A stretch of 64,000 nt of DNA, from NCBI GenBank assembly GCA_004010535.1, contig RQYE01000008.1, positions 1 through 64,000 of the forward strand, written 5' to 3'. Each line of letters begins with the position of its first letter. Positions within the stretch are counted from its first letter, which is position 1. The DNA is from Coriobacteriales bacterium OH1046. Its GTDB lineage: Bacteria; Actinomycetota; Coriobacteriia; Coriobacteriales; Atopobiaceae. Made by a program: the position numbers and the translations under genes. Positions 2,672 to 7,900 of this stretch are shown here, in pieces. A model generated the notes under the pieces. That model made no database searches. It saw only the letters and a program-made list of their open reading frames with translations, and was not told the origin of the DNA.

Positions 2672-3259
2672 ATGAGCTTCATGAGCAGCTTCGCAGAAAA
2701 GCACCCCAAGGCAGCCCAGTGGATCCGCGAGGGAGGCCTGTTCGTCCTCTTCAGCTATGTGGTCACCTTCATCAAGTATCTCCTGCTCACCTTCTTGCCG
2801 GCGCTCTTCGTCAGCATCGTGGGCGATGTCGAGTGGACCTGGCCCGGCATACAGATCGAGGTCCTGGGCGTGCCCCTCACGCTTGCCATCATCGGCAACA
2901 GCTTGGCCGACGGGGGCCTCGCCTTCACGCTTGCCAACTACACCACGATCCTTCTCGGCGAATGCATCAACTTCCCGCTGCAGCGCAACGTCACGTTCCG
3001 CAGCCACGGCCCCGTGCTGCCGCAGATCCTCTGCCATCTTGCCGGTACCATAGCGGTCATGCTGGTCATGAACCTCTTCACCTGCATCTGGAATCCCGTC
3101 ACGGCCGCGCTCGGCGTACCCGACGCCGTACGCAACATCGTCACCACCATCGTCACCGGCGGTGTGGCCATGGTCATCATCTTCGCCATCGACAAGACCA
3201 TCTTCGCGCCGGGCTTCATGAACCCCGGCTACGTCGAGGAAGAGGCCAAGGCCGAATAA
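2672..3259 (+). CDS. GtrA-like membrane protein
   Basis: Small integral membrane protein of 195 aa with about four transmembrane helices and the GtrA family signature FPLQRNVTFRS just before the third helix. GtrA-family proteins are thought to move polyprenyl-phosphate-linked sugars across the membrane or to assist cell-surface glycosylation. The ATG is preceded by AAGGAAA and lies 24 nt after the GH3 stop codon, so the two genes are probably cotranscribed. No glycosyltransferase gene is adjacent, so the usual flippase partner is not visible and the link to the GH3 enzyme is inferred from position only. Confidence 0.8.
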   Translation: MSFMSSFAEKHPKAAQWIREGGLFVLFSYVVTFIKYLLLTFLPALFVSIVGDVEWTWPGIQIEVLGVPLTLAIIGNSLADGGLAFTLANYTTILLGECINFPLQRNVTFRSHGPVLPQILCHLAGTIAVMLVMNLFTCIWNPVTAALGVPDAVRNIVTTIVTGGVAMVIIFAIDKTIFAPGFMNPGYVEEEAKAE

Positions 3260-3289
3260 TCGCGCCGCATCCCACCGCACGTCCCCCTG

Positions 3290-3324
3290 CCCCGCCCGGT
3301 TCCCGCCGGGAGGGGTGTCTTTTA
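3290..3324 (+). terminator. Rho-independent terminator after the GH3-GtrA pair
   Basis: A CCCCGCCCGG arm pairs with CCGGGAGGGG across a six-base loop with one mismatch, followed by TGTCTTTTA. It lies 30 nt past the GtrA stop codon. Confidence 0.65.
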
Positions 3325-3395
3325 CGGGTGTTTCAACTTGCTGCTCCTACGCAATCCGCCACACGTTCCTCTCCCCAACCGTTTCTCTCCCCCCT

Positions 3396-3495
3396 TAAAA
3401 CTACGCATTGGTTTTCTCCCAAACCGTATTCGCCACAGGCTATCTGGGCTTTTTCGATACAGCATCTTTCTAGGAGAGAAGTAATGTGTAGTTCT
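3396..3495. repeat. Left 100-bp imperfect palindrome flanking the nuclease-like gene
   Basis: This segment aligns without gaps to the reverse complement of 4696-4795; by hand count 86 of 100 positions are identical. Each copy is itself an imperfect palindrome: its ends read AACTACGCATT and AATGTGTAGTT, and about 18 of the outermost 24 positions pair. The core contains GGCTATCTGGGCTTTTTC, which recurs with one change in the palindrome at 59474-59549. The copy ends 25 nt upstream of the ribosome site of the gene at 3539, so it may also carry that gene's promoter. Confidence 0.85.
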
Positions 3496-3538
3496 GCTAT
3501 GGTGTTGGGCATTCTAAAACAGGAGGAGAGGAGCAACC

Positions 3539-4636
3539 ATGCCCTACGCCTTCATCAGCCACGCATCCGCTTGCGAGGCGCTCCGCATCAACGGGCTCGC
3601 GGGAGAGCCATGGCCCAGCAGGAGCCGCATGCTCCCCCATCGAGGGAGCTGTATCAGGCTCCAGAGGGATATTGCGCAGCTCGCCCGCACTGTCGACCTG
3701 AAAGCGCTCGGCATCATCAGCCAACCGATCGACATCCTGGTGCCCTCATCCTCCGTCCGCTCGCGCGGAAAGCGGGCGTGCACGCACAGCTGGGCGACGA
3801 TGATCCCGCCTGCATCGATGCTCCGTATGCACAAGAGCGTCATCGTGAGTACCCCCGAGTTCACCATCCTGCAGCTGGCGCATCGCCATGTCAGACGCAT
3901 CCCCGTATACGACAAGATGATCGACAGGCACCTCGCCGAGAAGGAGCTGCTCGCACAGCATGGCATCGACGCTCCGGCACCTGTCGAGGATTTGCTTGAG
4001 TGGGAGCACATGCGGCATATCGTGAGCATCGCGCAAACGGCCATGGAGTTTGCGGGAACATACCGCCTCGCCACGCCCGCAACCGACGTAGCATACAAGA
4101 TGCCGCAGCTCATGACTATCGAGTCTGCTCTTGCACTCCTCGATTCGTCGTACGAGCGCAACGATTCCCCGCGCGCGAGAAGAGCCCTCTGCCTCGCAGC
4201 TAACGGTTCGGCATCGCCCATGGAGACGGCGCTATTCCTCATGCTGACGCTTCCTGTGGAGATGGGTGGGTTCGGCATGCCCAGACCCGAACTCAACAGG
4301 AGCGTCCCCGTACGCTTGGGCGACGAGAACCTTGCACCCGACATCCTCTGGCGCGAGAAGAAACTGGTCATCGAGTACGAGAGCGAGGAGTTCCACGCAG
4401 GTCTGGGGCGCGATAAGACCGACCGCGACATCATGCGGGCAAACGAGCTCCGCTCCTCAGGCTATCAGGTGCTCGAAGCTACACCCGGCATCGCCTGCCA
4501 ACTTCCTAGGGCCAAGATGCTCGTTGAGCAGGTCGCGCGGCTTCTGGGCGTCGTTCTCCCCATGCCCGATGACAACCAGCGGAGGATGCGGGAACGTCTG
4601 CATCGGGAGCTTTTCTTGGGAAATGACAGCAGATAG
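3539..4636 (+). CDS. PD-(D/E)XK-like putative endonuclease flanked by inverted palindromes
   Basis: A 365-aa protein of a type I recall as multicopy in Coriobacteriia and usually annotated as hypothetical or DUF559/AbiEi-like. Its marks are VSTPEF near residue 103, an AGTYRL segment, NGSASPMETAL near 225, a GGFGMPRPELN stretch, and a nuclease-like core with Asp268 in DILWREKK and Glu279 in VIEYESEEFH. These are consistent with a PD-(D/E)XK or Vsr/DUF559-like fold, where Asp and Glu hold the metal; this is a family-level inference. A strong AGGAGGAGAGG ribosome site sits 8 nt before the ATG. There is no neighbouring toxin, methylase or integrase; instead two inverted 100-bp palindromic repeats bracket the gene. 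Role unknown: homing-like endonuclease, orphan restriction or antitoxin-like factor are all possible. Confidence 0.7.
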   Translation: MPYAFISHASACEALRINGLAGEPWPSRSRMLPHRGSCIRLQRDIAQLARTVDLKALGIISQPIDILVPSSSVRSRGKRACTHSWATMIPPASMLRMHKSVIVSTPEFTILQLAHRHVRRIPVYDKMIDRHLAEKELLAQHGIDAPAPVEDLLEWEHMRHIVSIAQTAMEFAGTYRLATPATDVAYKMPQLMTIESALALLDSSYERNDSPRARRALCLAANGSASPMETALFLMLTLPVEMGGFGMPRPELNRSVPVRLGDENLAPDILWREKKLVIEYESEEFHAGLGRDKTDRDIMRANELRSSGYQVLEATPGIACQLPRAKMLVEQVARLLGVVLPMPDDNQRRMRERLHRELFLGNDSR

Positions 4637-4695
4637 CTCTTTTCCTTTGCGCGGGTAAGGCCGATAACGGACAGCCTTTATCATCCGCACGGACC

Positions 4696-4795
4696 AGAAC
4701 TACGCATTACTTCTCTTTTAGAGAAATATCGCATCGAAAAGGACCAGATAGCCTATGGCGAATACGGTTTGGAAGAAAACCAATGCGTAGTTTTT
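4696..4795. repeat. Right 100-bp imperfect palindrome, inverted copy of 3396-3495
   Basis: Inverted partner of the left copy, beginning 60 nt after the gene's stop codon. Its ends, AACTACGCATT and AATGCGTAGTT, pair more perfectly than those of the left copy. The most divergent block between copies is around 4719-4732, where 5 of 10 bases differ. The copies are therefore old enough to have diverged and are not a cloning or assembly duplicate. Confidence 0.85.
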
Positions 4796-4874
4796 CATCG
4801 AGACGGGGGGCAATTTCAGGCGAGAGGCGGTTTCAGACGGGAAAACCGCCCGATAAGCGCGTTCGAGACACACG

Positions 4875-4902
4875 AGAAGGGCTCCCCGAGGGGAGCCCTT
4901 CT
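4875..4902 (-). terminator. Strong hairpin terminator after the reversed GH3 gene
   Basis: A perfect 13-bp stem (AGAAGGGCTCCCC with its complement) and a minimal GA loop, 32 nt past the stop codon of the minus-strand GH3 gene at 4934. The central 18 bp (GGCTCCCCGAGGGGAGCC) recurs in the terminator at 59569-59590. It also lies downstream of the plus-strand gene ending at 4636 and could act in both directions. Confidence 0.75.
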
Positions 4903-4933
4903 TTGGGAAAGGAGAGAGCTGCTGAAAAGACCC

Positions 4934-7900
4934 TTATGCTTCCTCGCGCTCCTTCTTGCGCTTGACATGGTTGCGGATACCGGTGCCGAGAATGGCTGCG
5001 AGGCCGACGCCGGAGATGATATTCACCGCAAGGCGAATCCGATCGAGCGGCTGCATGCCGGGAACGTACGCGGAGCCCGGCACGGCACCGTTCATGGCAC
5101 GGCTGTTGACCGTGGTGTAGAGCAGGTGGTGCGCCGCTTCGCGGGCATAGCGGTACTCAGCGCTGCTGGTAGCGTCGAACGCATAGGTGTTCTCATTGGA
5201 GCGCAGGTATGCATCTGCACCGGCACGGATCATCTGGCTCTGGTCGAAGGCAGGACTGCCCGCGTTGGCCGAGTCGGTGATGATGAAGCCGTCGAAGCCC
5301 CACTCATCGCGGACAAGCTGCTGGATAAGCGGGTAGCTGCCGCCGGTCCACGTGGCTCCAAGACGATTGAACGCCGTCATGATCCCCTGGGCGGCACGAA
5401 CGCCGGTGGTGTTGAGCGTATAGGCGCCGCCGGCATCGATCGTATAGTAGGTCAGTTCGACATCGGGCGCATGCATGCACAGCTCGAACGGACGCAGGTA
5501 GATCTCGCGCGCGGCCTGCTCGCCCACCCATGTGGCAACGGAACGGTCGACGCCGCCATCGCCGCGATGGTTCTCCTGGTCGTTGAAGGCGAAGTGCTTG
5601 ATCATCGAGTAGACGCCCAGTTCGGCCGCACCGTGGATCTCGCGCGCGGCGACGGTGCCGGAGATGATCGGATCCTCGCTGTAGTACTCGGCGGCACGCC
5701 CGATGAACTGCGTGCGGTGGATGTTCATCGAGGGAGCGTACCAGCCCATGGCGCCGCTCGTGCCTTGGAGGTTTGCCTCGGATGCCAGCATGCGTCCGTA
5801 GCTCTCGGCGAGCTTCTGGTTCCAGGTCTGCGCCATCACGATGGGCGAGCAGAACATCATGCCCGTGGAGCCGTAGATGAGGCCGGCTGCCGTGTCGGCA
5901 TCGATCACGAAGGGCTTGCCCACGCTCATGAGGTACTCGCTGCCGTAGCCGGAATGGCCGACGATCTCGGCGTAATCCTCGGCAGTGAGCTGATCGAGCA
6001 GGGCATCCCACGCGGGATCGTCATAGGGAAGGCCGCGCAGCTCGATGAGAGTCATGCCGTTGTCGGCGCCGTATACGGGCTCGTCGACGATGCTCGCGTC
6101 GTCTACGGGGTTGAGCGAGTCATGGCTCTCGAGCTGGGCGATGAGCTCGCCGGTCGCAGGCTTGCCCCACACGAGCGAGGCGGCATTGCCCTCGGCATCG
6201 GTGCCGTTGATGGCGTTGCCCCACGTGGAGATGTAGCCCTCGATGGGGGTGCCGTCGGGAGCGGGGAAGGTTCCCGTCCAGTCCGCGCGGGTAAGCTGGG
6301 CACTCTCGGGCTCGGCATAGCTCAGGATCGCAGTTATATCGCCGCCGGAGTAGGCGTCGGTCGAGAAGGTCTTGGCATCTACGGTCGGCGCGCTCGCGAG
6401 AGCGTTCTCGGCATCGATGACGACCTCATGCTCAGCGGCGAGACTGGCATCGCCGGCTGCCGTCATGCCATCTGCAACGCCCTTGCCCTTGACGGCGAGG
6501 ATGTTGTTCACGGCATCGTGGGCATCTTGGCCGATGGCGATGTAGTAGGTGCCGTTCTCGATGATGTAGGTGCCGGCACCGTGAGCGTCGAAGCTTGCGA
6601 GCAAGGCGGGATCGATGGCGATCTCGAGGGTCTGGCTCTCGCCGGGCGCAAGCAGCTTGGTCTTGTCATAAGCGGCGAGGGAGACAGAAGCCTTTTCGAT
6701 GCCGTGCTCCTGATCATACTCGGTGTAAGGCGCCTGAGCGTAGATCTGGATGGCATCCCTGCCGGCAACATCGCCGGTGTTGGTCACCGTGATCGTTGCG
6801 GTGATGGACTCGAGGCCCTTCCACTCGACTTGCAGATCGGAATACTCGAAGGTGGTGTAGGACAGACCATGGCCGAAGGGATACACGACCTCGGCGGAGT
6901 AATCGAAGTCGCCGGCGTTGCCCTGCTCCAGAACCGTGTCCTCGTAGCGGGTCTCGTAGTAGCGATAACCGACGTAGATGCCCTCGAGATAGCTCACGTA
7001 GTTGTAGCTTGCGGGATTGCCGCTCCCATCGAGGTACTCGAAATCGCCATAGTTCTGGGCGGCAGGGCTGGCGAGGGCATCGGCTGCGAAGGTGTCCACC
7101 GTATGGCCGCTCGGATTCACGGAACCGGAGAAGATGCCCGCCAGAGCCTCGGTGCCATACGTACCGGTGGAAGGCACGAAGAGGATGGCCTTGATGGACG
7201 GGAAGTCCGACACCCAGTCGAGCTCGAGCGCACTCGCGGTGTTGACGATAAGCACAACCTCGTCGTAGTTGTCATCGAGATACTGCAGGATCTCGAGCTC
7301 GGCGGTATCGGGCTCGATGTAGCTCCTAGCCTGGTCGGCAGGGTTGTCGGCATGGTTGTGCATGGAGCGGGGCATGTCGCGCCCCTCGCCCGCCACGCGC
7401 CTCCACACGAAAACGGGCACGGTGCCTTGGGCGCTCTCGAGCACGCCGTCTGCCGCCTGGAGCATGGAGAGCGGGCACTCGTTGATACGGAAATCCTCGG
7501 CCTCGCCGAAGTTGATGGAGCCGGGACCCATGGTGTAGTCCTTGCCGGCACCGGTGATGTAGAAATCCATAAGGGTTCCATTGACTGCGAGGCCCTCCGC
7601 CTCGAAAGCGCTCACCAGCAGGTTCTGGTCGCCCGAGGCACCGGTGAACTGCGTCATGATGGACTGCGTGGCGGTGAGGTTCTTCACGTTCTCGGAGAAG
7701 AACGAGAACGTGGTGCCCGGGGCGAACGGCATCACGGCATCGTCGTTCTTGAGCAGAACGTATCCTTCGCTCGCGATAGCATAGTCGAGCGCGTGCTCGG
7801 CATCGGCAATCTCATCCTGCGAGAAGTCGCTCTTGTAGTATTGCGCGTCCACGTCCTCGGCTCCGGCAGGCGTGGTCCAGCCCTGCTGATAGCCGAGCAT

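Follow-up and report, generated by a model that had tools for sequence, protein, structure and literature searches.

Nuclease genes framed by their own palindrome of about 95 bases apparently constitute a large, widespread and undescribed family in Coriobacteriia, a group of gut bacteria. Here we analyzed one such locus in a window of 64,000 nucleotides (contig RQYE01000008.1 of Coriobacteriales bacterium OH1046) together with its homologues in other genomes. The results suggested that, in the module of unit, gene and unit, nuclease and palindrome form a pair that acts as selfish DNA at low copy number, a reading to which we give a probability of roughly 0.58.

A nuclease gene between two inverted palindromic units

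As listed below, the nuclease gene of the window is enclosed by two palindromic units that are inverted relative to each other.

3399..3493, + strand: upstream palindromic unit, 95 bp, core towards the gene (inverted repeat; covariance model match, 60.3 bits)
3399..3412, + strand: left arm of the upstream unit, AACTACGCATTGGT (arm extraction)
3444..3454, + strand: central core of the upstream unit, CTGGGCTTTTT, 45 nt from the unit's left end (offset table)
3480..3493, - strand: right arm of the upstream unit, AACTACACATTACT in - strand reading (arm extraction)
3539..4636, + strand: nuclease gene, 365 aa (ORF)
4698..4792, - strand: downstream palindromic unit, 95 bp, inverted vs the upstream unit (inverted repeat; covariance model match, 62 bits)
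4737..4747, - strand: central core of the downstream unit, CTGGTCCTTTT on the - strand (offset table)

The repeat search of the window detected 100-nt inverted arms at 3397-3496 and 4695-4794 with 87% complementarity, and a covariance model from relatives trimmed the unit to 95 bp on each side (3399-3493 and 4698-4792). The initial annotation had placed the repeats at 3396-3495 and 4696-4795; they are real, but shifted by 1 base, and the functional unit is shorter. Its description of inverted copies, each palindromic, was confirmed by the repeat search and by folding, since the self-folding of each copy was far above that of shuffled sequences (z -4.1 to -5.4); the downstream copy carries a 20-nt inner inverted repeat at its ends. 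The divergence between the copies, which had been taken as a sign of function retained over time, needs correcting in that it is mainly interior, with the arms and the central core kept. The genome search found no third copy of the repeat in the window's genome, giving a total of 2.

Also as first described, the gene at 3539-4636 is the only one between the units, without an accompanying transposase, methylase or toxin gene. The interval holds nothing else, and no AbiEii toxin gene is adjacent to the nuclease gene. The neighbours of the module are a GtrA-like gene and large ORFs resembling glycosidases. No Rfam family matched near its gathering score within 3200-4900.

Fold of the window protein

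The AlphaFold model of the window protein was confident (pLDDT 94) and gave a layout of an AbiEi-like front part (residues ~1-220) followed by a Vsr/EDxHD-like nuclease domain (~226-338). In fold comparison, residues 226-338 matched the catalytic domain of I-Bth0305I (PDB 3r3p) with Z 7.8 and rmsd 2.6 over 97 residues, 3hrl with Z 6.7 and Vsr (1cw0) with Z 6.4, and residues 1-221 resembled AbiEi (6y8q) with Z 5.1. All Z scores were below 8, and Foldseek alone was weak, with structure matches at E above 0.001. The profile match to 3r3p reached E 0.0015, and the MTES_1575 and DUF559 profiles each matched 10/16 family members. In an alignment of 68 homologues, E229, D268, E279 and H286 were invariant and D297 was conserved in at least 90%; the columns of E279 and D297 align with E and D of 3r3p. 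Asp268 and Glu279, the two residues singled out at the outset, are thus among the invariant ones. The nuclease fold suspected then is supported by structure and profile, but it is of the Vsr/EDxHD type rather than a classic PD-(D/E)XK. As judged from the model, the window protein is a predicted nuclease-fold member of the Vsr/EDxHD type, closest to I-Bth0305I, and its DNA cleavage activity is inferred. Pfam scans returned no HUH tyrosine transposase family. One full-length homologue (L032, G033:C26:4604-5707) has a single in-frame TGA in the nuclease domain and is probably a recent pseudogene.

Matched palindromes flank the family genes

The window's genome contains about a dozen paralogues, and homologues were present in 74/100 relatives. 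A scan of GTDB genomes added 80 further loci, nearly all from Coriobacteriia (Olsenella, Thermophilibacter, Collinsella and Eggerthella among them); many of the genomes analyzed are MAGs. To determine the association, the 400 bp before each gene were compared with the 400 bp after it, using ORFs from the same loci as controls. Matched flank repeats were found for 40/68 family genes vs 0/170 control ORFs (Fisher 2e-27), and 30 of the 33 homologues in the closest clade had matched repeats on both sides, so that the repeats occur near homologous genes far more often than near control genes, in line with a check proposed in the initial annotation. Pairs of flanks taken across loci matched in only 25/1500 cases. 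A chance origin was ruled out by the control genes and shuffles.

Among the window-genome paralogues, 7/10 had strong matched pairs and 2 more had short pairs, with different arms for each. Upstream, the units are located some 20-180 bp ahead of the start codon, and downstream 6-160 bp beyond the stop codon. There were 7 to 21 matches per genome, some of them kept at orthologous sites across species. A few distant homologues from other Actinomycetota had matched flanking palindromes too. At four loci of other Actinomycetota (L272, L273, L276 and L283), DUF559-like genes carried matched palindromes or repeats with other arm sequences on both flanks. A window-genome paralogue (L012, G000:C14:146369-149827) has a ~204-bp, 82% palindrome beside its nuclease gene, at locus positions ~1115-1318. 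No paper linking DUF559 or Vsr-like genes with flanking palindromes was found in the open library, subscription papers being outside its scope.

Geometry and concerted change of the units

Nearly all units consist of two inverted arms, which mostly begin AA[C/T], and an asymmetric core in the centre (C[T/A]G[C/G]G.TTTT), whose position within the unit is fixed. In the 36 flanking units of 93-96 bp, the core starts 45 nt (in some, 46-47 nt) from the left end, in units of 73-74 bp 34-35 nt, and the strict core pattern at 45/46 occurred in 50/94 units vs 0.3% of shuffled interiors. Unit lengths fall into classes of 73-75, 83, 91-97 (mostly 94-96), 104-105 and 116 bp, in increments of roughly one helical turn. 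Units of 73-74 bp and of 83 bp are shorter by one turn in each half or in one half. This rule holds for the closest subtypes; for more distant subtypes, of 65-70 bp and 107-175 bp, conformity is not evident or is untested. The inference is that both arms need to be on one face of the double helix. Arm pairing was preserved through changes on both sides in 17/20 pairs, and G.U pairs in the arms were rarer than mismatches, suggesting DNA rather than RNA pairing. An RNA function was rejected given the few G.U pairs, the variable orientation and the absence of an Rfam match.

The arms changed in concert. Arm mismatch was 11% within loci vs 48% between loci. At one site with orthologues in ten species, upstream and downstream arms of a single genome differed by 2%, whereas arms of the same orthologous unit differed by 23% between subtypes. 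Such joint change of all four arms is expected if the arms follow one binding protein. Across all loci, arm distance was correlated with protein distance (r 0.25, p 0.008), but not convincingly so across 23 non-redundant loci (r 0.12, p 0.13). Covariation of repeat and protein subtypes, suggested earlier as a check, was found within loci and also when solo units were compared with the resident nuclease (below), although the deep correlation is weak.

Solo units match the resident nuclease

The covariance model also found units distant from any nuclease gene, dispersed in several relatives; none was found in the window's own genome for the window's unit. As the search model was built on gene-flanking units, the fixed core of solo units partly reflects how they were selected, and distant subtypes are under-counted. 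Solo arms matched those of the resident nuclease (a mean of 1.55 vs 4.11 mismatches of 13; 0/20000 permutations), while the interiors of such units differed despite the common arms. Units were found in 9/10 genomes with a close nuclease vs 10/50 (p 5e-5). For the solo units of G001, G007, G020, G031 and G106, there was no matching nuclease among the loci examined. One relative, G104, has at least 16 units, and several of these, though located at unrelated sites, have left halves that are almost identical. Core-centred copying breakpoints in this genome are suggestive and are not claimed, as just 7 interior bases lie to the right of the core.

Gain, loss and inversion of units

Comparison of relatives showed that units are gained and lost. 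The unit at G104:C147 was absent from three sister species (G042, G109 and G012), where the flanks are contiguous, and two more G104 units were absent from G012. One-unit sites were found at L189 (vs L054) and L192 (vs L066), each retaining a unit and a gene remnant, and given these remnants they are read as nuclease losses. On this comparison, some solo units are recent gains and others relics of lost genes. At L071, the unit was inverted in place relative to L065 and L070. Gene-flanking units were mostly stable at orthologous sites across species, indicating that mobility is slow.

No target-site duplication was resolved, the intergenic flanks being too diverged, and no clean pre-insertion site was found for the gene or for a whole unit-gene-unit element. 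A G002 site by the GtrA gene was ruled out as a clean empty site, since an argC-like gene is there. The intergenic site of G001 that matches the site of the window-genome nuclease L009 has a solo unit of another subtype instead. The empty sites that the initial annotation had proposed to look for in relatives exist for units in sister species, but not clearly for the whole element.

In G001, a sister species, the ortholog of the window gene (L139, G001:C33, reverse complement ~4235-4978) breaks off near residue 184 and gives way to a RAYT-like transposase gene that has GGGGACGGGGG-type repeats of its own; from the sequence, a REP-type element has apparently inserted into this nuclease gene. 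Each of three related species (L060, L066 and L067) lacks a different combination of the genes beside one shared nuclease unit, and the deletions end near it, as though units promoted deletions in their vicinity.

Discussion

Our results strongly support recognition by the nuclease of its own palindromes, although there are no binding data. In the proposed mechanism, the protein, probably as a dimer, would read the two inverted arms of a unit lying on the same helix face, with an arm sequence specific to each nuclease. The Vsr/EDxHD nuclease domain would thereby be placed on the conserved core C[T/A]G[C/G]G.TTTT, and a nick or break there might then be repaired or copied. As an outcome, units would be converted, inverted in place, gained and dispersed, and the gene together with its units more rarely. 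Binding, dimerization, cleavage at the core and spread through repair or copying are all inferred, without binding or cleavage data. The original idea that the protein cuts, copies or binds these palindromes is supported overall, as regards recognition; cutting, copying and mobilization remain inferences.

A homing-type element would explain part of the same data. The units would then be non-mobile targets, the nuclease would cut a unit and break repair would copy the gene into it, with a complete unit remaining at either end, and solo units would be uninvaded targets or relics of lost genes. The closest fold is indeed that of the homing endonuclease I-Bth0305I, some orthologous sites have one unit instead of unit, gene and unit (L189 for L054, L192 for L066), and the G001 solo unit, of another subtype, occupies the site of L009. 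However, the gene remnants at both one-unit sites point to losses, intact units next to the gene would be recut, units were gained without the gene, and several near-identical copies sit at unrelated sites in G104, so we consider this explanation unlikely, while keeping it in view.

Regulation or insulation would make the units operators and terminators of the gene, and the protein a repressor using its nuclease-like domain for binding only. AbiEi binds inverted repeats and autoregulates through them. The likeness of the front part to AbiEi, the close spacing of the units to start and stop, and their ability to form hairpins all fit, but autoregulation needs neither a matched downstream copy nor dispersed solo copies, unit orientation varies and flips, the catalytic residues are invariant in the 68 homologues, and the scarcity of G.U pairs is as expected for DNA, not RNA, pairing; we regard this role as quite improbable. 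Still harder to sustain is a host function, in which nuclease and units would together serve genome maintenance or defence, for example by processing cruciforms or attacking invading DNA that bears units. The number of matches per genome and their retention at some orthologous sites speak for it; but there are no methylase or partner genes, no relatives were confirmed in viral contigs (IMG/VR), copies decay and are lost in relatives, and the G001 gene is broken. PADLOC gave just one weak AbiEi match, and a known anti-phage defence was rejected with this alone to support it; a viral origin was rejected on the IMG/VR result.

Compared with known systems, the selfish nuclease-palindrome pair resembles REP/REPIN sequences with RAYT (TnpA_REP) and TIRtrons (PMC3733652, PMC3116915) in having a nuclease-type gene flanked by palindromes, a palindrome subtype dispersed in the genome and a unit of two inverted arms. 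RAYT is an HUH tyrosine transposase, whereas the present enzyme has a Vsr/EDxHD nuclease fold; the present units also differ in their low copy number (~1-16), fixed central core and length steps of a helical turn, and many subtypes lack the GTAG tag. Without an HUH enzyme, the system works like REP/RAYT and is not a member of it. I-Bth0305I, the closest solved nuclease domain (EDxHD, PDB 3r3p), is multi-domain and forms a dimer on a DNA site that is very long, at nearly 60 bp (PMC3943268), which offers a close precedent for a long site. Unlike it, the present genes are freestanding, chromosomal, in many copies and outside introns, and their palindromes are uninterrupted by the gene, occurring on both sides of it and alone. 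With presumed sites intact on both sides, this is not a standard homing element.

DUF559 / REase_MTES_1575 of Actinomycetota belongs to the same nuclease superfamily by profile, and some of the distant homologues outside Coriobacteriia have matched flanking palindromes; no function or linked repeats have been described for it in the open literature searched. The front part resembles AbiEi (6y8q) of the AbiE type IV toxin-antitoxin, but here it is fused to a nuclease domain, with no AbiEii toxin adjacent. MITEs are likewise short and non-coding, have terminal inverted repeats and vary in presence or absence, but no parental DDE transposon accompanies the present units and no target-site duplication was resolved.

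More tentatively, and at somewhat less than even odds, Vsr/EDxHD nucleases of this kind may represent a new class of mobile DNA, whose private palindromes spread by cutting and repair without a transposase or recombinase. The class would be widespread among Coriobacteriia and, probably, other Actinomycetota. Each nuclease would recognize a unit whose two arms stand in helical register on either side of a shared cut site, and the gene itself would have spread occasionally.

A large family of nucleases without annotation gains a likely DNA target that is readable from sequence, with a presumed recognition site on each side of the gene. Dozens of natural nuclease-site pairs with differing specificities become available, and their function is directly testable. 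The system would add an independent, non-HUH answer to the origin and persistence of dispersed bacterial palindromes.
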